A stretch of 64,000 bases of DNA from a virus: the IMG/VR virus record IMGVR_UViG_3300036716_002035, positions 1-64,000 of that record; one strand, written 5' to 3'. Positions 4,592 to 63,129 of the stretch are shown here, piece after piece; position 1 is the first letter of the stretch; each line of letters begins with the position of its first letter. The position numbers and the translations under genes are program-made. The notes beneath the pieces were generated by a model. That model searched no databases. It saw only the letters and a list, made by a program, of their open reading frames with translations, and was not told where the DNA came from.

Positions 4592-4626
4592 AATTGTTTT
4601 TTCCTCTTTTTTAATTGTGTCCCTAT

Positions 4627-4655: not shown

Positions 4656-4677
4656 CTCTTTTTAAATAAATTTTAAA

Positions 4678-4704
4678 CCAGAGGGAGTGACTTTCTCCCT
4701 CTGG
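4678..4704 (-). terminator. Intrinsic terminator after rIIA
   Basis: Perfect 10-bp hairpin CCAGAGGGAG / CTCCCTCTGG with a 7-nt loop. On the minus strand it is followed by TTTAAAATTTATTT. It lies 42 bp past the rIIA stop and just before the rIIB promoter. Confidence 0.85.
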
Positions 4705-4745
4705 CTTTATATGATAATATAATTACACTATGACTACTAAGAAAT

Positions 4746-6989: not shown

Positions 6990-7028
6990 AGTCAGTAATT
7001 ATTTTCAGTTTTTCTTAATCTTGTAATC

Positions 7029-7057
7029 CAGTCTGATTATTTTTTTGCCAATGTCAA
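7029..7057 (-). promoter_or_regulatory. Promoter of rIIA
   Basis: TTGACA (7052-7057) with a weak -10, AGACTG (spacer 17) or CAGACT (spacer 16). The leader includes TACAAGATTAAGAAA (7011-7025) before the ATG at 6989. Confidence 0.55.
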
Positions 7058-7065
7058 ATCTTTTT

Positions 7066-7473
7066 TTAAAAAGGAGTGTCAGAAAGTTGATGGTGCAAAG
7101 CCTGACAACTTGTTGAGCCTGTCCTTTTTAACCTGTCAAGAGCAGGTTTGCTCAAGCTATCCTCGTAGGCAGTTGTGGGGTCAATGAAGTTAGCTTCAAT
7201 ATTTTTTTTATTAGGTTGGTGCTTGTTGCCCATCTCTAAATAATTGTAAAGTTGTTTCCCTTCTTTGGCCTTTTCGACTAGGATTCGTTGTTCCAAGCAA
7301 AATTGTATTAAATTAAGTATGTCCTCCTCTTTTATTTTAACCCTTCCCGATTGGATGACCTCTCCATCAGCACCATTTGTTCCGCCTTCAATAATATATT
7401 CCTCAAGAGTATATGTTTTATTGTAGTAATCAGTCTGATTTTGTTTTACTCTATATCTTGTTGTTTTAACCAT
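7066..7473 (-). CDS. Hypothetical protein
   Basis: 135 aa, soluble, basic N-terminal beta-rich region (starts MVKTTRYRVKQNQTDYYNKT). No recognised domain. A TGTCCAA/TTGGACA inverted repeat lies upstream and overlaps a possible promoter. Confidence 0.6.
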   Translation of the reverse strand: MVKTTRYRVKQNQTDYYNKTYTLEEYIIEGGTNGADGEVIQSGRVKIKEEDILNLIQFCLEQRILVEKAKEGKQLYNYLEMGNKHQPNKKNIEANFIDPTTAYEDSLSKPALDRLKRTGSTSCQALHHQLSDTPF

Positions 7474-15697: not shown

Positions 15698-16627
15698 CTA
15701 ATTTATAGACTCAAGAACTTTCCTGCCGTGAGAGGTAATCTTTCTCTTGCCATCAATCTCCATAAAATGCTTCTTTAATAAATATAATTCGTGATCCCTT
15801 CTTAGAGATGAGGGGCTTAGGCCAGTAGACGCAGAGAGCATAGATAAAGTGCAAGCACCTCGCTTTAATAAAATTTCTAAAACCTGTCTCTCTGTACAAC
15901 TGATGCCATGCGGTAAAACCCCAAGAGTTTCACAAAAATTTTCATAAGACTTGTTATTAAAAATTGGTGTATTTTCGGCTTCACAATATAGCATTATTTC
16001 TTTTGCTCGCATTACCGCACTCCTTGCGTTACCCCTTGTTGTCTTAGATATTTTGTTGAGAGCGTCTGGAGAAAATTGAATGTCAGGTATTCTCCCTTGT
16101 AGTATTTGGCCTAATTCATTAGGCTCGTAAGGCTCAAAATCAATAGTAGTAAGCCTATCCTTTAAGGGAGGGAATAGCTTATCACTCTCTGTAGTGGCAA
16201 ACAAAAATGTCTGCTTACTAAAATCAAAGCTAAATACTTGCTCCTCCCAAGTAAATTCTTTTAAATGGCTTTTTTCCGTATTAAAAATAGTAAGGAAGGC
16301 GTTGGTTAAATCCTTTGGTAAATTATGGGCTTCATCCAGCAAAATAGTAACCTCATTGTGTGCGATGACAGGCAAAAAGATTTGCTCAAAGAAAGCTTCG
16401 TTATTCTTGATTGTTGAGCAATTGATTTCGAGAAACGGCCTAGGACTACCATCCTGATTGGTGAGGTTGCGAGCAAAAGCTTTTGCGAACTCCGTTTTAC
16501 CAAGACCTTTGGCTCCAACAAAATTTAAAAAAGGACAAATACTTGTTTTATTAAATGCCTTTAAGTAAAAAGAAAGTTTCTTTTTAACATTATCTTGTCC
16601 AACTAATCCATTGAATATATCACTCAT
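15698..16627 (-). CDS. RuvB-like AAA+ ATPase
   Basis: 309 aa, close to bacterial RuvB (~335). Walker A GAKGLGKTEFAK, Walker B TILLDEAHNLP, sensor-1 FATTE, LKDRL arginine-finger region, and a C-terminal winged helix (LLKRGACTLSMLSASTGLSP) typical of the RuvB C domain. Cellular RuvB drives Holliday-junction branch migration with RuvA. No RuvA or RuvC is visible here, but a Holliday-resolvase-like gene lies at 33143-33529. Start at 16627 (MSDIFNGL), overlapping the upstream gene by 8 bp. Confidence 0.85.
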   Translation of the reverse strand: MSDIFNGLVGQDNVKKKLSFYLKAFNKTSICPFLNFVGAKGLGKTEFAKAFARNLTNQDGSPRPFLEINCSTIKNNEAFFEQIFLPVIAHNEVTILLDEAHNLPKDLTNAFLTIFNTEKSHLKEFTWEEQVFSFDFSKQTFLFATTESDKLFPPLKDRLTTIDFEPYEPNELGQILQGRIPDIQFSPDALNKISKTTRGNARSAVMRAKEIMLYCEAENTPIFNNKSYENFCETLGVLPHGISCTERQVLEILLKRGACTLSMLSASTGLSPSSLRRDHELYLLKKHFMEIDGKRKITSHGRKVLESIN

Positions 16628-16844
16628 TATCAAACCTTGTTATTGAATATTTAATTTGGGGAGACTCCTCTTTGCTAGGGGAGTTTGGTTGTGGAGAATC
16701 TTGTGGCACATCCTCAAAGATAAAGCCAATAGATTCCAGCCAATTCTTTTTGACTGGCACTACGCCTTTTGCTCCAATGTATTCACCTAATTCTTCATAG
16801 GTGAGAGTATGGTAAACTACGGGTCTTCCTCGTTTTTCAATCAT
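16620..16844 (-). CDS. Small hypothetical protein, possible DNA binding
   Basis: 74 aa from the ATG at 16844 (MIEKRGRPVVYHTLTYEELG), which the promoter spacing fixes. A basic GRP motif near the N-terminus and a Ser/Pro-rich tail are visible. The region after GRP looks like a short HTH, but this is weak. Precedes and overlaps the RuvB-like gene. Confidence 0.6.
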   Translation of the reverse strand: MIEKRGRPVVYHTLTYEELGEYIGAKGVVPVKKNWLESIGFIFEDVPQDSPQPNSPSKEESPQIKYSITRFDNE

Positions 16845-29370: not shown

Positions 29371-30312
29371 TCAAACTTGACTCCATTGAACACTGAGAAG
29401 GTCAGATAATTCTTTACCGCCTCCATAAGAAATTGAAGATTGCAAATCCTCCTGTATTTCTGTTAATTTTTGATCATAAGTCATGTTATTAGTTGGGACT
29501 TCCTTCATGACCCCCTCGACATGAGATTTGGTTCCTTTGTTATGTTCGCTTGCTGATCCGAAATACTGCTTATAAATTTTACCATCTATAACTGTAGTGA
29601 TAGCAGGGCTATCTACGCATCGACTAAAAAGTGATCCTGCCATAGATAATCTGGCCCCCGCTACTAAAGATTTAGCGATATCTCCATTGCATCTAATTCC
29701 CCCATCAGCAATAATTGGTAAATTAGAACTTGCTTGGGTGCAATCTATTATAGAAGAGAACATTGGTCGTGTGAAGCCCGTTTTGTCTTTGGTAGTGCAA
29801 ACATTACCTTGCCCTATCCCCACCTTGGCGCAATTTGCGCCCCACCTAGCTAGATCATTCACCGCTTCAGCGGTTGCAACGTTCCCCGCTATAATAAAAC
29901 TATCGGGAAGCTTGTCTTCGATGTGAGCTAACATTTCTTTAACTAAAGGACTATGCCCATGAGCAATATCTATCGTAATAAAGTCTACCTTTCTGGCGTG
30001 CGCAGAAATAACCTCTATATCCTTAAAATCTTTATCCTTGACCCCGACACTGATTGAAATTGTTTTCCAGTCTTTAGCCCTCTTACAAAATTCAATAGGA
30101 CAAACCCCAAATCTATGCATTATATAAAAATAACCTGCTTCGCTTAGTTTTTCTGCCAAAGATTCATCAATAACGGCCTTCATGTTGGCGGGAACAATAG
30201 GGAGTTTAAACCTGTGGTTCCCCAGCGTTACTGAAGTATCTGCCTCGCTCCTACTAGAAACCTGAGATTCTCGAGGGATAAGGGTTACATCTGAATATCG
30301 AAGCTCTTTCAT
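29371..30312 (-). CDS. guaC: GMP reductase
   Basis: 313 aa, TIM-barrel of the IMPDH/GMPR family without CBS domains. Catalytic loop GIGQGNVCTTKD (Cys), phosphate-binding IIADGGIRCNGD and AGSLFSRC. The flap KQYFGSASEHNKG with following HVEG matches bacterial GMP reductase rather than IMPDH. It converts GMP plus NADPH to IMP plus ammonia. Start at 30312 by TAATG overlap. Rare in phages; paired with the deoxyribosyltransferase-like gene 30497-31039. Confidence 0.85.
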   Translation of the reverse strand: MKELRYSDVTLIPRESQVSSRSEADTSVTLGNHRFKLPIVPANMKAVIDESLAEKLSEAGYFYIMHRFGVCPIEFCKRAKDWKTISISVGVKDKDFKDIEVISAHARKVDFITIDIAHGHSPLVKEMLAHIEDKLPDSFIIAGNVATAEAVNDLARWGANCAKVGIGQGNVCTTKDKTGFTRPMFSSIIDCTQASSNLPIIADGGIRCNGDIAKSLVAGARLSMAGSLFSRCVDSPAITTVIDGKIYKQYFGSASEHNKGTKSHVEGVMKEVPTNNMTYDQKLTEIQEDLQSSISYGGGKELSDLLSVQWSQV

Positions 30313-30497
30313 TAATTTTGTAATTCTGACTGTATTTGTTCTTGTTTTTTTAGACACCGATCTAAATGAAACTGACAAAGTTTAATGTTTTTTTTACCCC
30401 TGATGAATCCGCCCCGATTTAATCTAAGTTGCCACTGCCTGATTTGACGTCCAATACTACTTAGTCTTTGTGCTGTTGAGAGTAACTTTTTTCCCAT
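30312..30497 (-). CDS. Small basic protein
   Basis: 61 aa, Gln/Arg/Lys-rich (starts MGKKLLSTAQRLSSIGRQIR). Sits between the deoxyribosyltransferase-like and guaC genes, overlapping both by about one base. Function unknown. Confidence 0.58.
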   Translation of the reverse strand: MGKKLLSTAQRLSSIGRQIRQWQLRLNRGGFIRGKKNIKLCQFHLDRCLKKQEQIQSELQN

Positions 30498-33681: not shown

Positions 33682-33730
33682 GTATCGTCCACTATTGACT
33701 GGTTTTCGTTTTTATTTTTTTTTCGTTAAC
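33679..33730. repeat. Dispersed repeat, copy A
   Basis: CAT(G/A)TATCGTCCACT, then TGG and CGTTTTTATTTTTTTT, about 45-52 bp in length. Shared with copy B at 39806-39856. It spans the last codons of the Clp ATPase gene and the start of gene 33514-33681. Confidence 0.6.
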
Positions 33731-36136
33731 AGAGATTTCTAGCTTTTTGATAGATACAGCGATATCTTTTACTTCGGAGGCGAGCAGCGTCGCCATTTTA
33801 TTTTCTATCTCGTCTTTAATAATTTTTTTAATGGGTCGCGCTCCATCGTTTCTCTCAAAAGCAATATCGGATATAAAGTTGCAAACTTTGGGGGCAAAAT
33901 TAACTTTGACTCCTGAAGGAGACAGTTTTTCCTTTAAATTTTTAAGCTCCAACTTAACTATGCGAGTGATTTCAGGAAGTCCCAACGTATTAAAAACAAC
34001 AATATCGTCCAAGCGATTAAGGAACTCTGGCTTAAAATGTTTAGAAGCCTCTTTGATAACTTCTGTGGAATTATCTACGTCAGTAGTAAGAAATCCCATT
34101 GACTTATTTTCCGTAAGTAAGTGGGCGCCTACGTTACCAGTTAGCAAAATTATACAATTGGCGAAACTAACCTCTTTGCCAAAACTATCTGTTAAGTGGC
34201 CCTCTTCCATGATTTGAAGAAGCATCTGATGTACTGATGCGTCTGCCTTTTCAATTTCATCAAATAAAATTACAGAATATGGGTTCTTTTTAACTTTTTC
34301 CGTTAACTGACCGCCCTCTTCGTAGCCAACGTAGCCAGGAGAAGATCCAACCATACGTGAGGCTGAAATTTTTTCAGAATATTCAGACATGTCCAGCTGT
34401 ATCAATCTCCCACGACCACCAAAAACTTCCTTAGCTAAAGTTTTAGCCAAAAACGTTTTGCCTACACCGCTAGAACCTAAGCATAAGAAAGCTCCAAACG
34501 GTTTGTTCTTTTCTTTTAAAGGGGTATGCCCACGCAACAAACAACTATATAATTTATCAATTGCGACATCCTGCCCTATCAAGGCATTTTTAAGTTTCTC
34601 GTTTAAGCCTACAAATTTACGGGAGCTATTTATAAAAATAGAATCCAAGGGAATTTTTGCTTTTTGAGACAGCGCTTCAAACAAGTTTCTATCTGAAACA
34701 TAACTCGGCGTCTTGCTTTTTTTGTCTGCCCACTTTACTAAAAGCTTTTCGTAAGAATGAAATAAATCATTTTGTTTTTTTGTAAGCTCTGGAGTCTTGC
34801 CCGAAGTTTCTTCTTGAAGCATTAGATCTTCAAGCTCCTTCTCTAATTTGTGGGCCTTATCTGGGCGCTTAAAAGCGTCTAGCTTTGCTTTTGCCCCAGC
34901 ATGATCTAGCAAATCTAGGGCTTTATCTGGGAACCGTCTGTCTCCTATATATTTTTCTGCCAAATGGACGCAATTTTCTACAATAAACTCTGGATAGGAA
35001 ACTCCGTGGAACTTTTCATAATATTTGCATGCGCTTTTTAATATTAAAATAGAATCTTCTTTTGTAGGCTCTTCTATTTTAACTACTTGGAACCTACGAT
35101 CTAATGCTCCATCTTTAGAGATGGTTTTCTTGTGCTCCTCAAATGTAGTAGCACCGATGCAAATGATTTCTCCACGCGCTAAAGCTGGCTTTAGCATATT
35201 TGCTGCATCCATAGTGCCTTCTGCGCTCCCCGCACCGACCAAAGTATGTATCTCATCAATAAATAATATAACTTTGTCACTCTCTGAAACCTCTTTAATG
35301 ACCTTCTTTAGTCTTTCTTCGAACTGTCCACGATATTTAGTGCCTGCAACTAATGAACCTATATCAAGGCCATATATCACCTTGCCAAGCAAAAACTCAG
35401 GGGCGCAACCATCTACTATGTTCTGGGCCAAACCTTCAATAGCTGCCGTCTTACCTACGCCTGGATCACCCAGTAATATTGGATTACTTTTTTTGCGCTT
35501 ACATAAAACCTCAGAAATTTCTTTAATCTCTAAATCTCTGCCAATAACTGGGTCTAATTTTTTATTTCTAGCTAATTCGTTAAAATTAACTGAAAATTTA
35601 GATAAATTTTCCAGCCTCCCTTCTGGCTCGGGAAGCTCGGTAACCATTTCGCGCTCCTCTTCAGGGTGAATACCTAAAGACTCTTCCTGCTCTACGAACC
35701 TGCTTTTCATGGCGGCAGAAAAAACCTTGGGGTCGATACCTACCTTAATAAGGTATTCGTAAATAGGGGATTCTGAGAATTGAGAAAGTGCTAATAAAAT
35801 ATGTTCAACACCTATATATCCATGGTCTAATTTCTCTGCAATTTTTTGGGCAATCAACAATGACTCATTCGCGTGTTGAGAATACATAAAATCCCCCTTA
35901 TTTTCTGAAGAAAAGTCTTGATCCTTATCTATTATACTCAACAAATGCAACTGCACCAAATCTACGGAGGTGTCTAGGCTATTAAAAGTTTCCTCTACAA
36001 CCTTTGCGTCTACCGATACTATACCATAGCAAAGATGCGCTATCGATACTACAAGAGTATTATTTTCTTCAGCAGCTTCTGCTGCAATTTTCAGAGCTTC
36101 TTGGGCTCTAGGCGTGAAATTGGGCTTCGTTTCCAT
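33692..36136 (-). CDS. ClpA/ClpC-like AAA+ unfoldase
   Basis: 814 aa from the ATG at 36136. Clp N domain with two repeats (residues 1-145). First AAA: PILLGDPGVGKTAAIEGLA and VILFIDEIHTL. Second AAA: LCLGSSGVGKTFLAKTLA and YSVILFDEIEKAD. A short middle region rather than ClpB's long coiled coil. An MGFLT loop sits where ClpA and ClpC carry their ClpP-binding IGL/VGF tripeptide. It unfolds proteins and feeds them to ClpP; a ClpP-like gene is at 63563. Its 3' end lies in repeat copy A. Confidence 0.92.
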   Translation of the reverse strand: METKPNFTPRAQEALKIAAEAAEENNTLVVSIAHLCYGIVSVDAKVVEETFNSLDTSVDLVQLHLLSIIDKDQDFSSENKGDFMYSQHANESLLIAQKIAEKLDHGYIGVEHILLALSQFSESPIYEYLIKVGIDPKVFSAAMKSRFVEQEESLGIHPEEEREMVTELPEPEGRLENLSKFSVNFNELARNKKLDPVIGRDLEIKEISEVLCKRKKSNPILLGDPGVGKTAAIEGLAQNIVDGCAPEFLLGKVIYGLDIGSLVAGTKYRGQFEERLKKVIKEVSESDKVILFIDEIHTLVGAGSAEGTMDAANMLKPALARGEIICIGATTFEEHKKTISKDGALDRRFQVVKIEEPTKEDSILILKSACKYYEKFHGVSYPEFIVENCVHLAEKYIGDRRFPDKALDLLDHAGAKAKLDAFKRPDKAHKLEKELEDLMLQEETSGKTPELTKKQNDLFHSYEKLLVKWADKKSKTPSYVSDRNLFEALSQKAKIPLDSIFINSSRKFVGLNEKLKNALIGQDVAIDKLYSCLLRGHTPLKEKNKPFGAFLCLGSSGVGKTFLAKTLAKEVFGGRGRLIQLDMSEYSEKISASRMVGSSPGYVGYEEGGQLTEKVKKNPYSVILFDEIEKADASVHQMLLQIMEEGHLTDSFGKEVSFANCIILLTGNVGAHLLTENKSMGFLTTDVDNSTEVIKEASKHFKPEFLNRLDDIVVFNTLGLPEITRIVKLELKNLKEKLSPSGVKVNFAPKVCNFISDIAFERNDGARPIKKIIKDEIENKMATLLASEVKDIAVSIKKLEISVNEKKIKTKTSQ

Positions 36137-36154
36137 TCTCAATATAAGGTTACA

Positions 36155-38737
36155 CTATTTAATATCGCTTAGTTTCATAAAGATCTTTTCGTCTAGGACG
36201 GCAATGCTATCCATAAATAAAATATCTGACCCTTTCCTGGCAGAAAATACAACTATGCTTTCTTTTTTTGGCATTTTATTTTTACTTAAAAAAGTATCTA
36301 CTCTGTTGTTTTCTATCCACCCCCTATCTGTGCGTTGCCTTCCATTAAGCAGCATGGCATCCATTGAGGCAGTCTCATCCGAAAGAGAAAATTTAATATA
36401 AAGATTGCCGTTTCGACTCTTTCTTTTGACTATGTCAGATATTACACCAATAAACTTAGCGCCATCTCCCTCCTCCAACCTCGAAGCATATAAGAGGTTG
36501 TTTAATTCTTGCCCAATAAAAACTTCAGTTAAGCGATTAGTATAACTATATCCTAACAATTTTCTTTCAAAGAACCAGTTTGCAAACTTCTCTTGCTTGC
36601 GGTTTTGATTATAAATCTCTCTATAAGGAAGATACTTCTTCTTAAACGTCCCAAATCTTTTTTCGGGCATTATTAATTTGCTATCATCACCGAGCAAAGC
36701 ATCCCTTTGAGTGGACGCTATACAATCTAAGAGTTTATAATCATATTTCTCTCCTAGGGCCACGAAATTACGCTTCTCTCGGTCAGTAAGGATGTTGAAA
36801 GCCTGAGCCTCTAAAACCAAAAGCGACCGACTGGAATCTCCGCACGAAGACATGGCTCCCGCCTGTATTAAGGCGGAAAGCGTACCAATATTAAGGCCAG
36901 CCGTTTTAGCTGTAAGAAAAATGTCGTATTTATTTATTCTTGCCGAATCCCTAAAATCTTTCAAGTTCTGGAGGGACTTTTCGCTAATACCCTTAATACT
37001 GTTTAATCCGTATCTAATATCTTTATCCTCGATAGTAAAGTCCATGTCTGACCTTGCTAAGTCAGGAGGTAACAACTTAATATTAAAATGAGGTAACTCT
37101 TGAGAAATTTTGCAAATCTCTTCGTGCGGGGCAGGCTCAAACTGCGACATTCGCAGAAGGGATTTGAAGAACTGAAGAGGGTGTTTGAATTTAAGGTATG
37201 TGGTCCACGCAGCAAGTGTTGCGTATGAAATTGAATGAGACTTGTTAAACGAATAGTTAGCGCTGTCCTCGGCCACGCTCCAAAGCACTTCGCCCACCTC
37301 GGAGGGAAGGTTATTCTCTATAACTTTTTGATCAATCTTTTGCTTCCAAATAGGCATTTCTTTAACCTTTTTTTTGCCTACTATACGCCTCAATTGTTCT
37401 GCTTCGTCCAAGCTAAAACCTACTTTAACAGCCATCTTCATGAGCTGCTCTTGATACAAAGGAATACCCCCAGTATACGAAAGGACATCATCAAAAAAAG
37501 GATGGACACTCTGAGATTCTCCAGTAGTAGCAAATTCTACAAAACTATCCATAAAATCTAAAGCGCCTGGCCGACCAATAGCTATGACTGCGCTTAACTC
37601 CTCTAAAGTTTTTGGACCAACCTTTTTGCATACTTTAAAGTTTACATCTGCCTCAATCTGAAAAAGGCCATGCGGACAATTGAAATCCTTAGATAATGGA
37701 GCAAACGAAGAAGACTCTCCCAATGGTATTTGATCTACAGATAAGTCAAGGCTCTGGCATACATCATAAATAACACTTAACGTTCTTAATCCTAATATGT
37801 CAAACTTAACCATAAGCTCGGCCACCCAATTCATGTCGTAACCACTTACCAATCCACCATCTCCAGTGCTTTGAAGCGGGCAAATATCCTCAAGCTTGTC
37901 GTAAGAAATTGCAATGCCTGAAGGGTGAACTCCTGTGTTTTTGTTCAAGCCCTCTAGCTTTTGGGCGACCTCATAAATATGGGTGTTTTTAGAAACCCAT
38001 TCTTCAAACTTTTCGCTTTCAAGTACTGAATCGATTAAAGAGGCAACCTTGCCAAACTTTTTGGGAATAAAATCACTAACCGCATTGACATCCTGCTCGG
38101 AATACAAGCCTACAATCTTGCCGCATTCTTTAATGCAAAGCTTGCTGCTTAAGGTGTTTAGCGTTAAAATATTACAAGTTCTTGATGGGTACCTATTCTC
38201 AATAAATTTAACAACATCCTGCCTCCTTTCGTAAGAAATGTCGTTGTCTATATCTGCTAATAATGAACCATCTAAATACGTAACCCCATCCTTGCCCTCT
38301 ATCTTCTTCGCCCTACTCTTGCTAACAAACCTCTCGAAATATAAATCATATCTCACGGGATCAATGTTTGTTACATCAATTAGATATAAAACCAAAGACC
38401 CTGCTGCTGAACCTCGTCCTGGTCCTGTGGGGATGTTCTTCTCGGCGCAAAAATTATGAACATCCCAATTTAATAAAATATAATCCACAAACCCAAGGTC
38501 CTGAAGTATATCTAACTCTTCTTTTGTCCTTTTGTAATATTTATCTTTGTTTTCGAAATGGTCTATTCCCCTATCCTTAATCCCTTCCCAACATAACCTT
38601 TTTAAAAAATCAAAATTAGAGATTGGGGATTTTATGTTGAATTTGTCATAAAAACGCTGTTCAATTTTAATTTCTGGCAAACGCACGCCTGGTGGGCAAG
38701 CCTCTTCGTAATCTGAAAAACCTTTAAAAAAATTCAT
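36155..38737 (-). CDS. dnaE: DNA polymerase III alpha, polymerase part without PHP domain
   Basis: 860 aa from the ATG at 38737, overlapping the exonuclease stop (ATGA). C-family polymerase motifs: GPGRGSAAGSLVLYLI, catalytic LADIDNDIS, TGVHPSGIAIS, MVKFDILGLRTLS, PLYQEQLMKMA, NKSHSISYATLAAW, a helix-hairpin region, and a C-terminal OB fold (FIGVISDIVKRKSRNG). The N-terminal PHP domain of cellular DnaE (~270 residues) is absent and encoded separately at 39840-40586. It is the main replicative polymerase of this phage. Confidence 0.93.
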   Translation of the reverse strand: MNFFKGFSDYEEACPPGVRLPEIKIEQRFYDKFNIKSPISNFDFLKRLCWEGIKDRGIDHFENKDKYYKRTKEELDILQDLGFVDYILLNWDVHNFCAEKNIPTGPGRGSAAGSLVLYLIDVTNIDPVRYDLYFERFVSKSRAKKIEGKDGVTYLDGSLLADIDNDISYERRQDVVKFIENRYPSRTCNILTLNTLSSKLCIKECGKIVGLYSEQDVNAVSDFIPKKFGKVASLIDSVLESEKFEEWVSKNTHIYEVAQKLEGLNKNTGVHPSGIAISYDKLEDICPLQSTGDGGLVSGYDMNWVAELMVKFDILGLRTLSVIYDVCQSLDLSVDQIPLGESSSFAPLSKDFNCPHGLFQIEADVNFKVCKKVGPKTLEELSAVIAIGRPGALDFMDSFVEFATTGESQSVHPFFDDVLSYTGGIPLYQEQLMKMAVKVGFSLDEAEQLRRIVGKKKVKEMPIWKQKIDQKVIENNLPSEVGEVLWSVAEDSANYSFNKSHSISYATLAAWTTYLKFKHPLQFFKSLLRMSQFEPAPHEEICKISQELPHFNIKLLPPDLARSDMDFTIEDKDIRYGLNSIKGISEKSLQNLKDFRDSARINKYDIFLTAKTAGLNIGTLSALIQAGAMSSCGDSSRSLLVLEAQAFNILTDREKRNFVALGEKYDYKLLDCIASTQRDALLGDDSKLIMPEKRFGTFKKKYLPYREIYNQNRKQEKFANWFFERKLLGYSYTNRLTEVFIGQELNNLLYASRLEEGDGAKFIGVISDIVKRKSRNGNLYIKFSLSDETASMDAMLLNGRQRTDRGWIENNRVDTFLSKNKMPKKESIVVFSARKGSDILFMDSIAVLDEKIFMKLSDIK

Positions 38738-39372
38738 AATTCTATCTCCCATAGTTGGCGACGAAAGATTTCGTAATTCATCTTTACGTCATAAATTGCA
38801 TCGTGCAGTTTGCTTGGATCGAAATCTAAGTCATAGCGTTTGCATAGTGCCGTAATGCTAGCTTTCATGCCGCGCTCCCTAAAGGAACATAACTTGTATT
38901 GCCACGATAAAAAATTACCCTTGGCCGCCTTAATCCCTTTGTGTATAGCTTTAGCAACGCATAGCGTGTCAATTAAGTCTCCAAGATAAGAGTAGTCTGG
39001 CTTTTTGTTTAAAAGCTTTCTAAAAATAGAATGTATATAAACATCGAAGCCCAATAAGTTGTGTCCCATTTTTATGTATTGGGGGTCATATAGATATTTT
39101 TCTATAACTCCCAAAACTTCTTCTGGGTCTTGTGCATTTTTTTCATATCTCTTTCTGTTGAAGCCTGTGATTTTCGCCGCGTCCGCAGAAATGTCCAAAC
39201 TGTCCCACTTAATTAAAAAATCAAATTCCTCAATCACTTCGTCCCCCTTACAGATGATAAACCCAGCTTGCCAGGGCTTGTTATTTAGACTGCATAGATT
39301 TAAGTTACAAGTCTCAAAATCGAATACCATGTATTTTTGGTTTTTCTTAAAACGTAAAAGTTCATCTTTCAT
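38734..39372 (-). CDS. dnaQ: DnaQ-like 3'-5' exonuclease (proofreading)
   Basis: 212 aa from the ATG at 39372, set by the promoter. DEDDh motifs: VFDFETCNLN, GHNLLGFDVYIHS and HDAIYDVKMNYE. It would provide proofreading to the adjacent polymerase, whose gene it overlaps by 4 bp. A longer upstream frame exists but would contain the promoter. Confidence 0.9.
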   Translation of the reverse strand: MKDELLRFKKNQKYMVFDFETCNLNLCSLNNKPWQAGFIICKGDEVIEEFDFLIKWDSLDISADAAKITGFNRKRYEKNAQDPEEVLGVIEKYLYDPQYIKMGHNLLGFDVYIHSIFRKLLNKKPDYSYLGDLIDTLCVAKAIHKGIKAAKGNFLSWQYKLCSFRERGMKASITALCKRYDLDFDPSKLHDAIYDVKMNYEIFRRQLWEIEL

Positions 39373-39379
39373 GTTGTGT

Positions 39380-39408
39380 AGCATACTAGATAATGAATAA
39401 ATAGTCAA
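39380..39408 (-). promoter_or_regulatory. Leaderless-type promoter of the exonuclease/polymerase unit
   Basis: TTGACT (39403-39408), 17-bp spacer, TATGCT (39380-39385), 7 bases, ATG at 39372. Confidence 0.78.
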
Positions 39409-39451
39409 TAAAAAACGGAAGCTATAAATTTTACGTGTATATATTTGCAAT

Positions 39452-39799
39452 ATGAGTATTAATGTATCATCCAGCGGAGTATTTAATGGCATAGGTATTG
39501 ATGGCACCGATTTAACCATTCCTTTAGCATCTATTCGATATGGGGGGAGCACGATAACTGAAGCAGAAGCTACAGGAGACTACAGGACATTGATGAGGGG
39601 AATTCAGGAAAGCTACCACTATTTTACGACAGGTGTTGCAACTGGCACTTCCAATCCCGACGATTTTAATAAGCCATCTTATTTTACAGAAACTGTATCT
39701 GATTGGAGTACTTATCAATCTAGTTACCTGACGAGGTATTATCAGACTACATTCTACTACAATATTATGGATGACGCTACACTGGTTGACGAAAGCTAG
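39452..39799 (+). CDS. Plus-strand protein, possible virion component
   Basis: 115 aa, Ser/Thr/Tyr-rich, beta-like (starts MSINVSSSGVFNGIGIDGTD). Upstream TATATT ends 6 bases before the ATG, but no good -35 is seen, so another sigma factor may be used. It lies between the polymerase/exonuclease unit and the PHP gene, like an inserted late gene. Family unknown. Confidence 0.65.
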   Translation: MSINVSSSGVFNGIGIDGTDLTIPLASIRYGGSTITEAEATGDYRTLMRGIQESYHYFTTGVATGTSNPDDFNKPSYFTETVSDWSTYQSSYLTRYYQTTFYYNIMDDATLVDES

Positions 39800-39805
39800 T
39801 CGCAT

Positions 39806-39856
39806 CCATATATCGTCCACTGACTACTGGCTCCCGTTTTTATTTTTTTTCGTTCG
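39806..39856. repeat. Dispersed repeat, copy B
   Basis: CATATATCGTCCACT, then TGG and CGTTTTTATTTTTTTTCGTT, matching copy A with few differences. It spans the last codons of the PHP gene and the 3' flank of the plus-strand gene. Confidence 0.6.
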
Positions 39857-40586
39857 TAGGTAACCATTCCTCAAAACAAAAGGAATCACTCCCTTGGTGG
39901 TCAAAATTGGGCACCGTTAAATCCCTGGTCTTGAACGTCCTGTTGCAGATGCATTTGTACGTTTGATATGCAGAGAAGTCTTTTTTAGCTTTGTAGAAAA
40001 TGCTTTTTGTTTCTAATATTGAGTGACAGTTCCTGTCGCAATAAGCATCAACCTCGTCTTCAATTAAGCCGTCAAAGGGTAAATTATTATTTTCTGTAAA
40101 AAAAATAGGATCAGCAAAAGAAAAGTCGGGGGTGCAACTAGAAAATGACATTGCATTATTAAAAATAAAAGAATCGTAAAAAGGTATGGCAAGTTTTAAC
40201 GCAGAGTCATCCCAAATATCCTTCAAGTATTCCTCCGAAAGAACGCCTCCGCCGATCGTAAAAGCGTTTGTGTAAATTTTATTTAAAAGCCTGCATCCTA
40301 AAGAATTTTTAGCAAAAATTACTATTTTGTGAACGCACGACGAATCTTTTGATTCCTCGTTAGACATGGAGATTCTTAGCCCGAACCTAAGATTAAGGCC
40401 ATGATCTCTTGCCCCGTCGCGTGCTTCTAGAAAACCTATCAAGGAGTCTTCTACTAAGACGATATCCTTTAAGTCCGCATCTTTGGCAATAGAAAGTATG
40501 CTTCGGTTTTTTGTTTTTTCTGAAGGTTCCTCAAAAGTTAAAATGCTTTTGCCTATGGAGTAGTGTGATTTAAATAAAGGGATCAT
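39840..40586 (-). CDS. Stand-alone PHP domain of DNA polymerase III alpha
   Basis: 248 aa from the ATG at 40586. It matches the N-terminal PHP domain of DnaE in length and order: FKSHYSIGKSIL, DIVLVEDSLIGFLEA, GLNLRFGLRI and KIVIFAKNSLGCRLLNKI, ending EEWLPTNEKK. The first metal motif (usually HxH) reads KSHYS, so catalysis is doubtful and a structural role more likely. It presumably reassembles with the 36155-38737 polymerase. The polymerase starts where this protein ends in a normal DnaE. Confidence 0.8.
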   Translation of the reverse strand: MIPLFKSHYSIGKSILTFEEPSEKTKNRSILSIAKDADLKDIVLVEDSLIGFLEARDGARDHGLNLRFGLRISMSNEESKDSSCVHKIVIFAKNSLGCRLLNKIYTNAFTIGGGVLSEEYLKDIWDDSALKLAIPFYDSFIFNNAMSFSSCTPDFSFADPIFFTENNNLPFDGLIEDEVDAYCDRNCHSILETKSIFYKAKKDFSAYQTYKCICNRTFKTRDLTVPNFDHQGSDSFCFEEWLPTNEKK

Positions 40587-40592
40587 CAATAC

Positions 40593-40621
40593 AGAATAAC
40601 ACTTACAATCAATGCAGTCAA
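40593..40621 (-). promoter_or_regulatory. Leaderless-type promoter of the PHP gene
   Basis: TTGACT (40616-40621), 17-bp spacer, TATTCT (40593-40598), 6 bases, ATG at 40586. Confidence 0.78.
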
Positions 40622-40622
40622 C

Positions 40623-41699
40623 TCAAAAATCAAACTCATCCTTTTTATTCCAATGAGGGCAACCCTTATACGATCTTAATTCTATTGTATCTCCATCTTT
40701 TTGTATTTTTTCTAAATCAATACGCTTCTCCTTGAAGGCCGAAGCTTTTATCTTCTCGTCTTTATTAATTAAAACATAATAATCCATAGGCCTCCTGAAA
40801 GGACAAATATACGCAGGTATCTTGTTGCCATCCTGATCCAATAAAGGCTCTCCTCTAAACTTTTTAAAACCCTCTCTACCGCAAGACAAGGGGCCGCCAA
40901 AGGAACCGTCTTTAGGGTAAGGCTTTGTTGCAGCAAATCCCACGCGGGCTTTTGCGTCCGTAAAATCATTTAAATATTTATTTATTTCTGTTAGGTGATA
41001 CTCAAACCCCTCAAGCTCTTCATCTTCTAGTTCGTTCATTTGAAGTAGCCCCTTGCCTGTAGCTCCTACCAAATCTTTTCCCAAAGGAAATCTCAAAAAT
41101 AAAAATTCAGAAAATCTTTTTTTGTATTTAGGATACATCTGTTTTACTGCTAAGGAATACATTAGGTCTTGCAAATTATCCGTAGCATCTTTCCCTTTAA
41201 ATACCTGTTTGCTTGTCTTGAAATCTCTTATTACCGCGTGTTTATTATATAAAAATAATTTATCAATAAAACCTTTAATCCGATAGTGCTTCCCGTCTTT
41301 TTTTACCGTAAGGTCAAAATCCTTTTCGGATATAGCCTCCTTAGGTACTTGTTCGGTATCTCCAAAAAAATCATACTTTAAACCTTTTAAAGTCATCTCA
41401 TCCATATCCTCCAAGGCTTCTGGATAATTGATGTCCAATCTACCTGCATAAATAGACACTAATCTAGCTATGGGGCCTGAAGCATAAATCGTACCCGAGT
41501 CCAAGATTTTTTTAAGGTGGGAAGCGTGCTTGTCTGCGCCAAGAAGCTCAAATATAAGATGACAAATCCATCCTTTAGATGCTCCCTCATTGGTTGACTC
41601 TGGAAGCTTTAAAACGTACTTAGAAAAGTAAGTCCAGCTACATGTTTGGGCAGTCTTAATTCGACTGGCAGACAAAGGGGTAAGTTCTTCTTTATTCAT
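40623..41699 (-). CDS. RecB-family PD-(D/E)XK nuclease, probable Fe-S type
   Basis: 358 aa. Core IKGFIDKLFLYNKHAVIRDF followed by KTSK gives the D...DxK active site of RecB/Cas4-like nucleases; NLQDLMYSLAV matches motif QxxxY-like helix. Cys at the N-terminus (AQTCSWTYF) and three at the C-terminus (LSCGREG, YICPFRRP, KGCPHW) could bind an iron-sulfur cluster as in Cas4 and AddB. Overlaps the primase gene by 8 bp. Likely replication or recombination end processing. Confidence 0.8.
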   Translation of the reverse strand: MNKEELTPLSASRIKTAQTCSWTYFSKYVLKLPESTNEGASKGWICHLIFELLGADKHASHLKKILDSGTIYASGPIARLVSIYAGRLDINYPEALEDMDEMTLKGLKYDFFGDTEQVPKEAISEKDFDLTVKKDGKHYRIKGFIDKLFLYNKHAVIRDFKTSKQVFKGKDATDNLQDLMYSLAVKQMYPKYKKRFSEFLFLRFPLGKDLVGATGKGLLQMNELEDEELEGFEYHLTEINKYLNDFTDAKARVGFAATKPYPKDGSFGGPLSCGREGFKKFRGEPLLDQDGNKIPAYICPFRRPMDYYVLINKDEKIKASAFKEKRIDLEKIQKDGDTIELRSYKGCPHWNKKDEFDF

Positions 41700-42756
41700 T
41701 AATATATTTAAGGTTCTTCATTATGTTTTTAGACAACCGACCTTTTTTAAAAAGAAGCTTGGCCGACTTAATGATATAGTTTTTTTGCGCTTCTATATCT
41801 AACTCTTTAGCCTTATTTTTCCACGTAACAAAATGATCTTCATCCATATCTCCGAAGTCATTTTTGACTGGCAGGCATATCTGCAAAACATTCGGGTCAA
41901 AATGCCCCAATAGCTTAAGATAATTCTTAATGCATGCATTTAATCCTCTGTTATCTTCTTTAGAGCTATCATTGTTGAAAGATAAGGTAATCTTATTCAA
42001 GCCTATTCCCGAAAGAAAACAGATCAAGGACGGAGAAATGTCTAGGCCGAACGTTACCAAAACATTTTTGATTCCATGTTCATGCAAGGATAAAAGATCT
42101 CCAATACTTTCCACAAGAATTACCGAATCTTTCTGAGAAATAATATCTGATACTGACTCACCTGTACGAAACTTTAAATGGGCAGGATAAATCCAATTAG
42201 ATTTTCTTCCTACATGCTTCCATTTGGGCCTGTTCTCTCCGTCAATCATATCCCTGCCAGCAAACCCGTGTATCTGGCCATGTATATTAATAATAGGGAA
42301 TACAAACCTCTTGTTCATTTGCCCATACGTTGCAAACCCACCCAAAAAAAACTTTAAAGTAGTGTCTGAGATCCCCCTGTTATTATAAAACTTATAATGC
42401 GGGAGCAGCTTATCTAAAATACTAATGTCGTATATCTCTTCCATCTCTATCTTTCCTTCGAGGTTGCTGCGCTTTTTTTTTAAATCGCCTAAATTAGAAT
42501 CTTTTAAATATTTCTTAATTGTATATGGGTTACTGGTTCCTAAAGTTTTTTGAACCAATAATTCGAACCTTGAATAAGGATTGTTATTACTACCATCCCT
42601 GTCAACATAATCCCTCCATACTCCCGTATCTTTATAAATTTGTAATGCTGTCTGATTATCTCCGTCCCTATATATGGCAGTCGCTTGCCAATACGCCCCT
42701 CTATCCTTTAATTTATAACCCAAGGACTCGAGCACTTCTTTTACTGTGCCTGACAT
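41692..42756 (-). CDS. DnaG-like DNA primase
   Basis: 354 aa. A central DnaG-like core (YNNRGISDTTLKFFLGGF, RFVFPIINIHGQIHGFAGRD) is followed by a Toprim region: SVILVESIGDLLSLHEHGIK (Glu) and ITLSFNNDSS (Asp-type site shifted). An N-terminal zinc finger is not obvious. It makes RNA primers for the phage replisome. It overlaps the helicase start region by one base (TAATG), linking primase and helicase production. Confidence 0.85.
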   Translation of the reverse strand: MSGTVKEVLESLGYKLKDRGAYWQATAIYRDGDNQTALQIYKDTGVWRDYVDRDGSNNNPYSRFELLVQKTLGTSNPYTIKKYLKDSNLGDLKKKRSNLEGKIEMEEIYDISILDKLLPHYKFYNNRGISDTTLKFFLGGFATYGQMNKRFVFPIINIHGQIHGFAGRDMIDGENRPKWKHVGRKSNWIYPAHLKFRTGESVSDIISQKDSVILVESIGDLLSLHEHGIKNVLVTFGLDISPSLICFLSGIGLNKITLSFNNDSSKEDNRGLNACIKNYLKLLGHFDPNVLQICLPVKNDFGDMDEDHFVTWKNKAKELDIEAQKNYIIKSAKLLFKKGRLSKNIMKNLKYINE

Positions 42757-44270
42757 TATAATTCGTCTGGGAGATTGTCTATGAAATTTTCTTGAGGCGA
42801 CACATCATTAAAATTCAAAGCTTCTACCATATCTACTAAATCACCCCTCTCCTCAATAGAGAAATTATCAATTTCCAAATTGATATAATTATTTCTTTTA
42901 GATCCATCAGGCAGTTCTACTGGCTGAACTGCTCTTTGGTAATCTGAACCCAAATGCCTTGATTTTAGACAAGATAATTGGTGCGAACCAAATCCATCTG
43001 GTTCTTCTTGTATTTGGTCTAAGGTTTTTCTTCTTAAATGAAACATGTGAGAACAAAACTGTATTATCCTATCCGACAAGGAAACTACGCTCTCGTCATC
43101 AACCACGTTTTCTGCGCGACGATTAGTTGTAATTCCATGCCTGTTGCTTTGAACGCTGGTCATCATTGAAATAACAGGGCCATCGTCACCCAAAATCTCC
43201 TTTTGGATAACGTTTTTAAATTTAGTGACCATATCTCCCACGACTTGCCACTCAGAACTATTTCTATTTTGAGTCTGCTCAGTAGTCTTAATATAATCAA
43301 AACTAAATATCATATTTTTTCCTCTTCCAACGTTCGAATAATAAAAACGACGTAAAACATTAGCCATTTCATCAACTGAGAGCCCAGCGACATTATAATA
43401 ATGGAACTTAAAATCTTTAATAATTTTCCAAACGTCTCTAATTCGCTTGACAAAATCTTGATTATTCCTCCACATGCCGCTCTCGAGATAATGTATTGGA
43501 ACTTTTGACAAGGCTGAACATTGCCTCATTGTAATCTCTTCTTGGGACATTTCTCCATTATCAAAGTGTAAGACAGGAACGTTGTTGTATTTTCGAGAAA
43601 CCTTGCTTATAAAATCCAAGCAAAAGGTAGTCTTTCCCACTCCAGAACGAGCGACAATAACAGAGATATTTCCTGGCCTCAAAAGAGAACCATACAATTC
43701 ATTCACCCTTTTATAGGGGCCCATGAAACCAAATTCTTCCTTTGGATTATCTCCGCGCTCTTCAATGACCTCTTCCATTGACGCATAAATATTTTGGGGT
43801 GCGTCGTTTACATGGTAAAGATCTATCTGTTTATTATAAATGTTGTCCGCAGCGCTAATAATGTCGTCAAAAGAATGGTTCGATCCCAGACTTTTCATTT
43901 TCTTGGCTACTTCTACAGCGGAAGCGTAAATAGACCTTCTTACGCTAATCTTTTTAAGTTCTTGAGCTGAATTGGTTACTCCCTTTTCTGATATTTTTCT
44001 CAAGCCCAAAGAAGCAATGTATTGAGAAATATCAATATTGTCCTCAAAAGATATATTAAAATCTTTAACCTTCTGCGCAAGAACCACTTCGTCTACCTGT
44101 ACTCCTTTGTCAATACAGTTTCTTAATATTTTGAATATAGTGGCATGAACTTGACTCGCTTCTGTAGAGAAGTCGTCTTCAGAAATAAACGGAGCAATTT
44201 CTGCGTACATTTCTGGGTGTTTAATAAGCCCAGCCAAAAGATGCCTTTCAAGCTCTTTAGATTCAATCAT
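42756..44270 (-). CDS. dnaB: DnaB-like replicative helicase
   Basis: 504 aa. N-terminal DnaB domain (ERHLLAGLIKHPEMYAEIAP), then RecA-type motor: Walker A VIVARSGVGKTTFCLDF, VLHFDNGEMSQEEITMRQ, SFDYIKTTEQTQNRNS (Walker B) and QSNRHG. Unwinds DNA at the fork. Near full length of bacterial DnaB (~470). Transcribed from a leaderless-type promoter and followed by the primase and RecB-like nuclease. Confidence 0.92.
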   Translation of the reverse strand: MIESKELERHLLAGLIKHPEMYAEIAPFISEDDFSTEASQVHATIFKILRNCIDKGVQVDEVVLAQKVKDFNISFEDNIDISQYIASLGLRKISEKGVTNSAQELKKISVRRSIYASAVEVAKKMKSLGSNHSFDDIISAADNIYNKQIDLYHVNDAPQNIYASMEEVIEERGDNPKEEFGFMGPYKRVNELYGSLLRPGNISVIVARSGVGKTTFCLDFISKVSRKYNNVPVLHFDNGEMSQEEITMRQCSALSKVPIHYLESGMWRNNQDFVKRIRDVWKIIKDFKFHYYNVAGLSVDEMANVLRRFYYSNVGRGKNMIFSFDYIKTTEQTQNRNSSEWQVVGDMVTKFKNVIQKEILGDDGPVISMMTSVQSNRHGITTNRRAENVVDDESVVSLSDRIIQFCSHMFHLRRKTLDQIQEEPDGFGSHQLSCLKSRHLGSDYQRAVQPVELPDGSKRNNYINLEIDNFSIEERGDLVDMVEALNFNDVSPQENFIDNLPDEL

Positions 44271-44606: not shown

Positions 44607-45017
44607 TTACAAAGAGATACCGACATTTTTAAAAAAATCCAGAGTGAGTTCCCTCCTGTCGTAAATCTCTACGAGTTGTATATGGTTTAGTTCACAAAAT
44701 TTTAGTTTGTTCTGGTCTCTTCTGAGCTGGTTTATATAATTATATTTATTGTTGCCATGGAAAAAAGGCGTATACTTTCGGTGCTGAGCCCCCTGAACTT
44801 CAATAGCTATTTTTTTATTGGCGTTGTAAAAATCTAACGATAGCCTGGAACCCGCTACTGGGAACTCTTCAAATACAACATGACTAAACCAATATTCTTT
44901 TAAAAAAGACTTTGTGGCTTTTTGTATCTTGCTTCTGCTTTTCCCGTCCCAATTAATAAGATATTTCTTAGGATTAATTACGGATCGAGCGGCCCCGCCA
45001 AGCGTAACGAACCTCAT
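44607..45017 (-). CDS. VSR/DUF2726-like nuclease
   Basis: 136 aa. LSLDFYNANKKIAIEVQGAQ, then H and QLRRDQNKLKFCELNHIQLV, fits restriction-like nucleases of the VSR/DUF559 type (D...ExQ with a following His). It may nick DNA in repair or host degradation. Overlaps recA by 4 bp. Confidence 0.72.
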   Translation of the reverse strand: MRFVTLGGAARSVINPKKYLINWDGKSRSKIQKATKSFLKEYWFSHVVFEEFPVAGSRLSLDFYNANKKIAIEVQGAQHRKYTPFFHGNNKYNYINQLRRDQNKLKFCELNHIQLVEIYDRRELTLDFFKNVGISL

Positions 45018-46108
45018 CTGAGGGATGCAACTTCTTCGGTGATCAATTCTAATAAAAAATCTCTAAACGGAGCATTATTTTCTAAATAATCAATCAACTT
45101 AGGCTCTCCTTGTATTTTTTCAACAAATTCAATTCCCGCTTGAGAGCATTTATCTGCAACTTCTTTGTCTAAGGAAATCCAAGCTCCTTTTTTCTCCAAG
45201 AATCCCCACAAATAAGACATCTCAATGACCTCTTTTTCTAGCCAAACAGAAGTTCCATTGGTCCTTCCGTATCTAATTGGATATCTTACCATTGCTCCCG
45301 TGCGTTCATTAACACTTTTGCGAAAAACTACCTTGCATATGTGGCCAATTGGATTGCCCTTGTCTTCAAGTTTTGCTGCACTAGGATTTTCAAATATAAT
45401 ATCGTTGTTATAGCGCTCTTGAAACTCTAAAATAAAGTTAGCATAATGTTTTATTGCGTTCCCTCCAGCCTGCTTTGTTTTTGGGCCGCCTCTTGCAGCA
45501 TAAGGATTTGTAGCAACCTCCACCCTAACCTGGGATGTTAAAATCATCATGTGGTTCAACTTAAGTATTGGGAGTACCATTTTTTTTAAGAAAACAGAAG
45601 TTATAAGGGCGCCTCCAGCGACTTGTTCGCTATCTTCAAAAGGCTTGTCGTAATCATTCTGACGACATAAAGCATCGACGCTATCAACTATAAATAAATA
45701 TTTCTTTTCCTCTTCATTGTCCATTACAAGCATGCGAATTAATTCAAATACCTTTTCGAATACATTGCAGTCAAATTTAAAAAATTTATTTTCAGAAGCG
45801 TCTAGTCCCGACCTTCTTATCATCTCTGGCCCCAGCCTCCCTTCGCTCTTTATATAAACAACCATGCCTTTGTCTCCAAAATGATCTTGAAATCGTTTGG
45901 CTATAGCCATGGCGCAAGATGTCTTTCCCCCCTCATTCACTCCCGTAAACCTATGCACTCCAGCAGGTAGGCCGCCGTCCAACGCAAGATCTAAATTTAA
46001 ACTCCCAGTTGGTATCTTATAGTCCAGCTCTTCGTGGTCATTATAATGAAACCTTTTGTTGTTCTTGTCATCAAGAAACGCTTTAATATTATTTAATGTT
46101 TTACTCAT
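45014..46108 (-). CDS. recA: RecA-like recombinase
   Basis: 364 aa from the ATG at 46108 (overlaps the upstream stop by 8 bp). Core: IPTGSLNLDLALDGGLPAG, Walker A GVNEGGKTSCAMAIA, KYLFIVDSVDAL (Walker B), and L2-type loop GGPKTKQAGGNAIKHYANF. Strand exchange in replication-linked recombination. The Walker A first half GVNEGG departs from the usual GPESSG, but GKT is kept. Confidence 0.92.
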   Translation of the reverse strand: MSKTLNNIKAFLDDKNNKRFHYNDHEELDYKIPTGSLNLDLALDGGLPAGVHRFTGVNEGGKTSCAMAIAKRFQDHFGDKGMVVYIKSEGRLGPEMIRRSGLDASENKFFKFDCNVFEKVFELIRMLVMDNEEEKKYLFIVDSVDALCRQNDYDKPFEDSEQVAGGALITSVFLKKMVLPILKLNHMMILTSQVRVEVATNPYAARGGPKTKQAGGNAIKHYANFILEFQERYNNDIIFENPSAAKLEDKGNPIGHICKVVFRKSVNERTGAMVRYPIRYGRTNGTSVWLEKEVIEMSYLWGFLEKKGAWISLDKEVADKCSQAGIEFVEKIQGEPKLIDYLENNAPFRDFLLELITEEVASLR

Positions 46109-46454
46109 ATCTTTCTGACAAAAAGTCTTTGATTGTTCTTTTTCTTCTTCCGATGTTTGCATCTTTTCCTATTTTTGTGGGGGATAATTCGTGTTGAGTT
46201 GGTTTGGGAATTTTGTAATTATAATCTAAAAATTTGCGTTTTACAAGTTTTTTCCAGTTCGGGCTAGCAAGTATAGCTAGACTGTCAAACTTTTGCCCAA
46301 AGTTAACATCGCTCCAAAAACATTGATCAGGGAACTCTTCAAGAAATCTATTTAGAAGAGTCATTTCTTTTTTCCAAAAAGGTCTTTTGGCTGTCGTAGG
46401 TTCGTTAATATGTTTTTGAATAATCTGCCTTTTGTTTAAGCATTTTTTTGACAT
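46101..46454 (-). CDS. Hypothetical basic protein
   Basis: 117 aa, basic with Trp residues (FPDQCFWSDVNFGQKFDSLA). Upstream of recA in one unit with a leaderless-type promoter, so it may help recombination. No family recognised. Confidence 0.6.
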   Translation of the reverse strand: MSKKCLNKRQIIQKHINEPTTAKRPFWKKEMTLLNRFLEEFPDQCFWSDVNFGQKFDSLAILASPNWKKLVKRKFLDYNYKIPKPTQHELSPTKIGKDANIGRRKRTIKDFLSERYE

Positions 46455-62077: not shown

Positions 62078-63094
62078 TTAAAAATCGTCTTCCAATGAAC
62101 CGCTTTGTTGGTACTCTCTAACCCTGCGCTCAAAAAAATTAGTCATTGCTTGGGTGTCAACAACTTCACTTAGCCATGGAAATGGATTTGTATCAGATGG
62201 AAATCTATAGTCCAAGCCGATAGATTCTAGCCTTCTGTTTCCAATATAATGCATGTAATCTACAAACATATCTGCATTCAAACCTAGAATACCTGTAGGA
62301 AGAACATCTTTTGCATATGAAATTTCCAGCTCAACAGTCTTTTTCATGTGCTCGACAAATTCTTGCTGTATTTCTTCCGTCCAAATCTCAGGATTTTGTT
62401 CGGTAATGGTGTTAATTAAATAAATCCCAAACTTAATATGAATACTCTCATCCCTAAGAGTATATTTAATTTGGTCTGAAATTCCTTGAAGCTTATTTTG
62501 TCTACCTAATGCAAGTAGCATTGCAAAGCCAGAGAAGAAAAACGTACCTTCGCACACTACATAATAAGTAAAAAGATTCTTTAAGAACTCTTTCTTCCCG
62601 CCCTCGTTATCTGTAGAAAAATCATTACGAGTAAGGTCAGTAGTGATTTCCATCAAGAAATCATCTTTTGCTTTGATTGATGGGATGGTTTCATACGCAC
62701 GGAAAACTTCATCTATATCTAGACTGAGGCTATCGCAAATATAAACTACAGTAAGGTTGTGCAAGCTCTCTTCAAAAGCTTGGCGCAAAATATATTGGCG
62801 ACATTCTGGATCTGTTACGTATTTAAAAGCAGAAAGCAATAAATTATTTCCAACCAATGATTCGCTTCCAGCAAAAAAACCTAAACATCTTTTAACTAAA
62901 AGCTTTTCATCATCAGAAATTGTTCCGTTTTTCCACTGGTTGATATCTTCCTGCATTGAAATTTCTGTAGGCATCCAATTATTCGCGCACCCTTTCAGAA
63001 ACAGGTCCCATGCGAATTTATGTTTATGAGGGAGTATTCGGTTGACTCCAGCAATATCCTGACTAATTAAATTTCCTGTTTTTTCTTTACTCAT
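62078..63094 (-). CDS. nrdB: Ribonucleotide reductase beta subunit, class I
   Basis: 338 aa from the ATG at 63094. The diiron-type ligands are present: E78 (SESL), E109 and H112 (EESLH), CEGTFFFSG and RDESIH. The residue four after H112, which carries the radical Tyr in class Ia enzymes, is Val116. That points to a tyrosine-less (class Ic-like) cofactor. A large subunit is not in the window. It supplies dNDPs for replication. Confidence 0.9.
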   Translation of the reverse strand: MSKEKTGNLISQDIAGVNRILPHKHKFAWDLFLKGCANNWMPTEISMQEDINQWKNGTISDDEKLLVKRCLGFFAGSESLVGNNLLLSAFKYVTDPECRQYILRQAFEESLHNLTVVYICDSLSLDIDEVFRAYETIPSIKAKDDFLMEITTDLTRNDFSTDNEGGKKEFLKNLFTYYVVCEGTFFFSGFAMLLALGRQNKLQGISDQIKYTLRDESIHIKFGIYLINTITEQNPEIWTEEIQQEFVEHMKKTVELEISYAKDVLPTGILGLNADMFVDYMHYIGNRRLESIGLDYRFPSDTNPFPWLSEVVDTQAMTNFFERRVREYQQSGSLEDDF

Positions 63095-63100
63095 TTCAAT

Positions 63101-63129
63101 AGGATACAAAAAACCCAGGCCTAAGTCAA
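63101..63129 (-). promoter_or_regulatory. Leaderless-type promoter of nrdB and the glycan cluster
   Basis: TTGACT (63124-63129), 17-bp spacer, TATCCT (63101-63106), 6 bases, ATG at 63094. No other clear promoter is seen before 46497, so one transcript may run through the whole cluster. Confidence 0.78.

Follow-up and report, generated by a model that had tools for sequence, protein, structure and literature searches.

The 64,000-nucleotide stretch analyzed here (the window; positions 1 to 64,000 of IMG/VR virus record IMGVR_UViG_3300036716_002035, which is 71.6 kb long in total) carries a DnaE-type DNA polymerase whose PHP domain and polymerase chain are encoded by two separate genes, php and pol, with a gene for a proofreading exonuclease (exo) between them. 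The minus-strand genes are arranged in the transcription order DnaB helicase, TOPRIM primase, Cas4/RecB-like nuclease, PHP, exo, pol, and ClpA-like unfoldase (Table 1). Exo and pol overlap by 4 nucleotides (ATGA), and a plus-strand gene, convergent with php and divergent from exo, lies between php and exo. The open reading frames (ORFs) and coordinates that an earlier note, made from the sequence alone, had given for these four genes are all correct. The split DnaE described in that note is also real, since php, exo, and pol are intact genes, each with its own start and stop, and the split is conserved across the clade of related viruses.

The pol product matches the Pfam families DNA_pol3_alpha (7e-59) and finger (3e-27) and, among structures in the PDB, DnaE (E value of 1e-112) far better than PolC (E value of 1e-7), with an OB-like match that is C-terminal. 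Its catalytic residues D162, D164, and D313 are invariant among relatives. The palm and fingers with the Asp triad of a DnaE-type polymerase are thus present, and the DnaE-fold PHP is present as a separate protein rather than in a single chain. The PHP protein has no Pfam match. Its AlphaFold2 model has a pLDDT of 88.9, and the top 18 Foldseek matches of this model are all DnaE PHP domains. In VIA comparisons, the model aligned with residues 6 to 251 of E. coli DnaE with a Z score of 20.3 over 227 residues; DnaE and PolC PHP domains gave Z scores of 16.4 to 20.3, whereas other phosphoesterases and PHP-like enzymes gave at most 11.4. An unrelated phosphoesterase, which the earlier note had named as an identity that would overturn its proposal, is therefore ruled out by the fold, and the assignment of the stand-alone protein to the DnaE-type PHP domains is based on its fold, gene order, and position.

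Alignment of both proteins with full-length DnaE, a check proposed in the earlier note, showed complementary coverage. In PHROG family 405 (DnaE, 1190 positions), the PHP ORF covers positions 50 to 150 and pol covers positions 327 to 1040. Since the PHP model ends at E. coli residue 251 and pol starts at about residues 259 to 278 (LP motif), the break lies exactly at the PHP/palm boundary (E. coli residues ~252 to 278), as had been proposed, and the two proteins together constitute one whole DnaE minus most of a short linker.

The residues D18, E20, D110, H190, and D195 of the exo product (DxE, D, HxxxxD) are invariant in 53 relatives, which identifies it as a DEDDh (DnaQ) proofreading exonuclease. 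Its best structural match is of the PolC type (2p1j; E value of 6.5e-8), and the RNase_T match stops 9 residues short of the C terminus. Metal-dependent PHP domains have a signature of nine residues, HHDHEH(C/H)DH (PMC12926913). The corresponding positions in the PHP family studied here are L, K6, K13, D or a gap, R71, a variable residue (H, C, or other), F136, S, and F or Y, so that at most one variable histidine is left and the family does not belong to the metal-dependent PHP domains. K6, K13, R71, and K194 are each at least 90% conserved, and PFYDS (135 to 139) is invariant; judging from residue conservation, the metal site has been replaced by conserved new residues and has not simply decayed. 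The earlier note had read the metal motif as KSHYS. Although the metal site is indeed altered, the histidine of this motif (H8) is variable, and the replacing residues are K6, K13, R71, and others. Metal loss in polymerase PHP domains accompanies a separate exonuclease, and the dead PHP domain of E. coli stabilizes polymerase III (Pol III) (Barros et al. 2013, PMC3666897). The window fits this pattern, with the PHP domain here in its own gene, and the loss of the ligands beside an intact exonuclease favors the structural rather than metal-dependent role suggested in the earlier note.

Table 1. Features of the split polymerase locus and of other genes in the window
Feature	Coordinates	Strand	Description
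php	39840..40586	-	Stand-alone DnaE-type PHP domain, 248 amino acids; metal ligands lost; motif PLFKSHYSIGKSIL
exo	38734..39372	-	DEDDh (DnaQ/RNase_T) proofreading exonuclease, 212 amino acids
pol	36155..38737	-	DnaE palm, thumb, fingers, HHH and OB region, PHP-less, 860 amino acids
Plus-strand accessory gene	39452..39799	+	115 amino acids, function not assigned; codon usage coding-like; lineage-specific
php promoter	40587..40621	-	Leaderless-type, sigma-70-like; TTGACT-17-TATTCT, 6 nucleotides to ATG
exo-pol promoter	39373..39408	-	Leaderless-type; TTGACT-17-TATGCT, 7 nucleotides to ATG
Cas4/RecB-like PD-(D/E)XK nuclease	40623..41699	-	Conserved neighbor, upstream of php
TOPRIM primase	41692..42756	-	Conserved neighbor
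DnaB-like replicative helicase	42756..44270	-	Conserved neighbor; leaderless-type promoter of its own
ClpA-like AAA+ unfoldase	33692..36142	-	Downstream of pol, usual neighbor in clade I
T4-type accessory genes	3527-6989, 45014-46162, 15698-16633, 1884-3059, 62078-63109		

In scans of viral contigs, 409 pol relatives and 194 PHP relatives were confirmed, and the best 80 of each were fetched. In all 107 distinct loci holding both php and pol, php, exo, and pol are separate and follow one order, dnaB-primase-nuclease-PHP-exo-pol. Every informative locus of a second clade, whose pol sequences are ~49% identical, has the same arrangement (~47 further loci, not deduplicated). An unsplit version, which the earlier note had proposed to look for in related phages, was thus found in none of these loci. 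The distance between php and exo is at most 5 nucleotides (abutting or overlapping) in 66 of 97 loci, and that between exo and pol is at most 2 nucleotides in 75 of 102, mostly -4 (ATGA type). Altogether, the relatives lie in hundreds of contigs of uncultured, mostly marine phages, every informative one of which has this arrangement, far beyond what chance would produce. Eleven of 12 viral records surveyed whole with one profile contain exactly one PHP and one pol; in the twelfth (L179), no PHP was seen, but the contig is cut off ~4 kb upstream of pol. A search for a B-family polymerase in 12 records, a near-identical set that included the window's own, gave no match. Therefore, php-exo-pol probably constitutes the main replicase of these phages, and the fission is old, older than the divergence of the clade. 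A tblastn search of a cultured-phage collection with PHP as the query gave no match (the cultured precedents described below were found via the polymerase), and since the clade has no close relative in that collection, its replicase is unstudied.

Several variants were observed among the relatives. The PHP subunit has 439 amino acids in L192:1751-3067 and L210:3292-4608, and the extra C-terminal part in L192 matches phrog_18407 (unknown function). Near profile position 495-560, pol has an insertion of ~100 amino acids or is broken into two ORFs (L215:7992-10931 and L207:7938-10994), possibly by an intein or intron. One contig with the split module (L164; PBIO01000033) was binned in a Halobacteriovorax metagenome-assembled genome, a weak hint of Bdellovibrionota among the hosts that is insufficient to assign them.

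The plus-strand gene looks coding but is no part of the polymerase. The earlier note had suggested gene fission fixed by insertion of this gene, as its position between php and exo in the window might imply. However, outside the window's own virus the gene has no counterpart apart from a weak homologue in one distant contig, while the split is common to the whole clade and most relatives have no gap at this spot; thus, the gene is a recent insertion that did not fix the fission, and a fission caused in this way is highly improbable. In L003, the nearest relative, the gene between php and exo, at 6886-7341 (-), is likewise on the reverse strand but unrelated and, by eye, encodes a membrane/coiled-coil protein, and in L013:5548-6509 (-) there are two tandem reverse-strand genes weakly similar to that of the window. 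Genes at the junction in other relatives are IMPDH-like, SET domain, cupin, JmjC-like, FkbM methyltransferase, or unknown genes, or there are none. The php-exo junction is therefore an insertion site that was used later and repeatedly, and the always-present exonuclease gene marks the break if anything does. An IMPDH/GMP-reductase-like gene (phrog_9582) that lies elsewhere in the window (29371-30378) is found between php and exo in several relatives, e.g., L010:6395-7369.

Sigma-70-like promoters of the leaderless type, with the -10 box 5 to 8 nucleotides before the start codon, are predicted at many gene starts in the window. Sites scoring at least 9 at such positions precede 15 of 98 window genes and 24 of 490 controls, an enrichment at gene starts. 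The php, exo, and dnaB genes are each preceded by TTGAC(A/T)-17-TANNNT, 6 to 7 nucleotides before ATG, so that the leaderless-type promoters noted earlier for php and for the exo-pol unit are present as sequence motifs. Because compact relatives have no room between the genes for an exo promoter, the division of the window's genes into two units, php and exo-pol, is probably secondary.

Taken together, these genes most probably encode the phage's own replicative DnaE-type C-family polymerase with PHP as a separate subunit. Because the metal site is lost but kept in a new form and an intact exonuclease is adjacent, assembly in trans with a structural PHP is the best reading and is likely. The PHP protein would fold alone and dock noncovalently on the palm/thumb face that the domain occupies in unsplit DnaE, where it may stabilize the polymerase and perhaps seat the DEDDh exonuclease, which as a separate protein would do all of the proofreading. 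Originally, php, exo, and pol would have overlapped in a single operon; later, in the lineage of the window, a gene on the reverse strand would have entered between php and exo, and exo-pol now has a leaderless-type promoter of its own. Several points weigh against this interpretation. The sequence match of PHP to solved structures is weak by itself (E value of 0.07), the short helical linker of DnaE (about residues 252 to 277 in E. coli) is largely missing, exo ends with the RNase_T domain and has no epsilon-like C-terminal tail, and a PHP that separates freely is unexpected given the cooperative unfolding of E. coli Pol III as a single unit (PMC3666897).

Alternatively, PHP may have left the polymerase for another job, such as anchoring the exonuclease or some other component of the replisome or binding phosphate or nucleic acid via the new basic pocket, with a PHP-free polymerase remaining. 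The metal ligands were swapped for a conserved basic set and did not merely decay, PHP is more variable than pol (mean column identity, 52% versus 67%), and php has its own promoter in the window, all of which speak for such a role. However, php never lies outside the replisome operon and in nearly every case immediately precedes exo, the protein retains the whole DnaE-type PHP fold with its C-terminal part, and every pol of the clade with informative upstream sequence has a PHP, the truncated L179 contig being the exception, so that this alternative appears unlikely. Rejoining of the chains after transcription or translation, by a split intein, trans-splicing, or a frameshift, has a precedent in the DnaE of cyanobacteria, which is known to be joined through a split intein (PMC3919608). 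Such a mechanism has very little in its favor here: the PHP model stops where the domain does and pol opens with DnaE linker sequence, leaving no space for intein halves, and the two are separated by an entire exonuclease gene that is often in a different frame. Unlike the split-intein DnaE of cyanobacteria, the proteins have no extra sequence on either side of the break. An assembly or sequencing error, the other circumstance that the earlier note had named as fatal to its proposal, or a decaying pseudogene is the least probable explanation. Nothing was found in its favor, and the same structure, with open frames and invariant residues, recurs in over 100 independent contigs drawn from numerous metagenomes, which rules out an assembly error.

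A more far-reaching version of the trans-assembly model is conceivable but doubtful. The PHP, exo, and pol proteins may form an obligate three-protein replicase of a large and ancient viral lineage, in which the dead metal site was rebuilt as a conserved basic pocket (K6, K13, R71, and K194, beside the IPFYDSF motif) with a new function, such as a grip on the exonuclease or on the DNA backbone. The fission might then have occurred via capture of an exonuclease gene between PHP and pol, giving a PolC-like order by another route.

The PHP/pol split is already known as a kind in cultured phages. In Rhodococcus phage MacGully (OR283216), DnaE is split at the same PHP/palm boundary into gp68 and gp67, which are labeled "PHP domain" and "palm, fingers, thumb domains" in the record. 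However, this split is not related by descent to that of the window; the motif I histidines of its PHP are kept (LHTHTTFSHGDG), and the two genes overlap by 10 nucleotides with no exonuclease gene between them. In mycobacteriophages Onyinye and Leopard (gp82/gp84) and in Papyrusvirus (Candle gp70/gp72), PHP and a PHP-less polymerase are likewise separate, with a small gene between them. Their PHP proteins match PF02811 (E values of 5e-33 and 2e-36) and, unlike that of the window, those of Onyinye and Candle keep all nine metal ligands; there is no exonuclease at the break, and the polymerases nest among unsplit actinophage DnaE. Candle gp70 (L232:1578-2513) is annotated as "DNA polymerase III sliding clamp" but is really the PHP domain of a split DnaE (PF02811; E value of 1.7e-36). 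The same misannotation occurs in Send513, Zenon, Weiss13, Nilo, Riparian, and MontyDev, and PHP is mostly mislabeled in Papyrusvirus.

Phylogenetic analysis placed the window's clade in one group with a support of 100 and a long stem (the tree is unrooted, and the position of the clade is weak). The actinophage splits nest among unsplit relatives, with Chill beside Onyinye and Buggaboo beside MacGully. In approximately unbiased (AU) tests, from which the polymerase of Pseudomonas phage Y1 was left out as possible host sequence, given its grouping with E. coli DnaE, a single origin was rejected both for the marine and mycobacteriophage splits (P = 7e-6) and for the four sampled actinophage splits (P = 4e-8). 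Parsimony requires four changes, at least three of which are forced by the starred branches. Because of this nesting and the rejection of joint origins, fission or re-fusion at the PHP/pol boundary must have taken place more than once. That the marine clade underwent fission, and did not start from separate genes, is suggested by cellular DnaE and PolC, both of which are fused.

Other known systems resemble the window in part. E. coli DnaE (Pol III alpha) with epsilon likewise has a DnaE-type palm, fingers, and PHP, the last metal-poor, and a separate exonuclease (PMC3666897). However, E. coli DnaE is one chain, and the C-terminal tail of epsilon binds PHP; the window's exonuclease has no such tail and does not qualify as an epsilon. 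The PolC of Firmicutes shares the order PHP, exonuclease, and polymerase as well as the exonuclease resemblance, but it is a single chain with the exonuclease inserted inside PHP and an N-terminal OB, whereas the window has separate genes and a DnaE-like pol and so does not encode a PolC. Group 2.2 jumbo phages also have a phage C-family polymerase in separate genes, a split minimal Pol III alpha (Iyer et al. 2021, PMC7824862), but it is split within the catalytic region, lacks PHP, is encoded by distant genes, and has a B-family polymerase as a companion, none of which is true of the window. In Cellulophaga phage phiST, likewise a marine phage, DnaE lies in two overlapping ORFs; unlike in the window, the break is inside the palm (pol position ~144), and PHP stays on the first piece. 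These ORFs, of 526 and 677 amino acids, lie in an unannotated gap of the phiST record (L239:41629-45232; NC_020842).

No paper describing a PHP/pol split was found in the literature searched, in which coverage of subscription journals was mostly absent. As far as searched, the metal-dead PHP, the exonuclease at the break, and the entire uncultured clade are new. Strict conservation of the PHP domain has been reported among the replicative C-family polymerases of bacteria, yet its purpose is unsettled where the metal site is dead, and in E. coli the domain can be studied only inside a polypeptide that unfolds as a whole (PMC3666897). The clade, which is large given the number of pol relatives confirmed in one viral scan, offers a natural experiment in which a metal-dead PHP is a separate protein that can be added to or omitted from a polymerase assay. 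Recurrent fission in phages at the same boundary indicates that PHP and the polymerase are separable modules.

Profiles of T4-like capsid and clamp proteins gave no match in the large contigs, and the controls were equally without a match. In the window, T4-type accessory genes lie beside the bacterial-type polymerase, namely, rIIA-/rIIB-like, UvsX-like, clamp-loader, DNA ligase, and ribonucleotide reductase genes.

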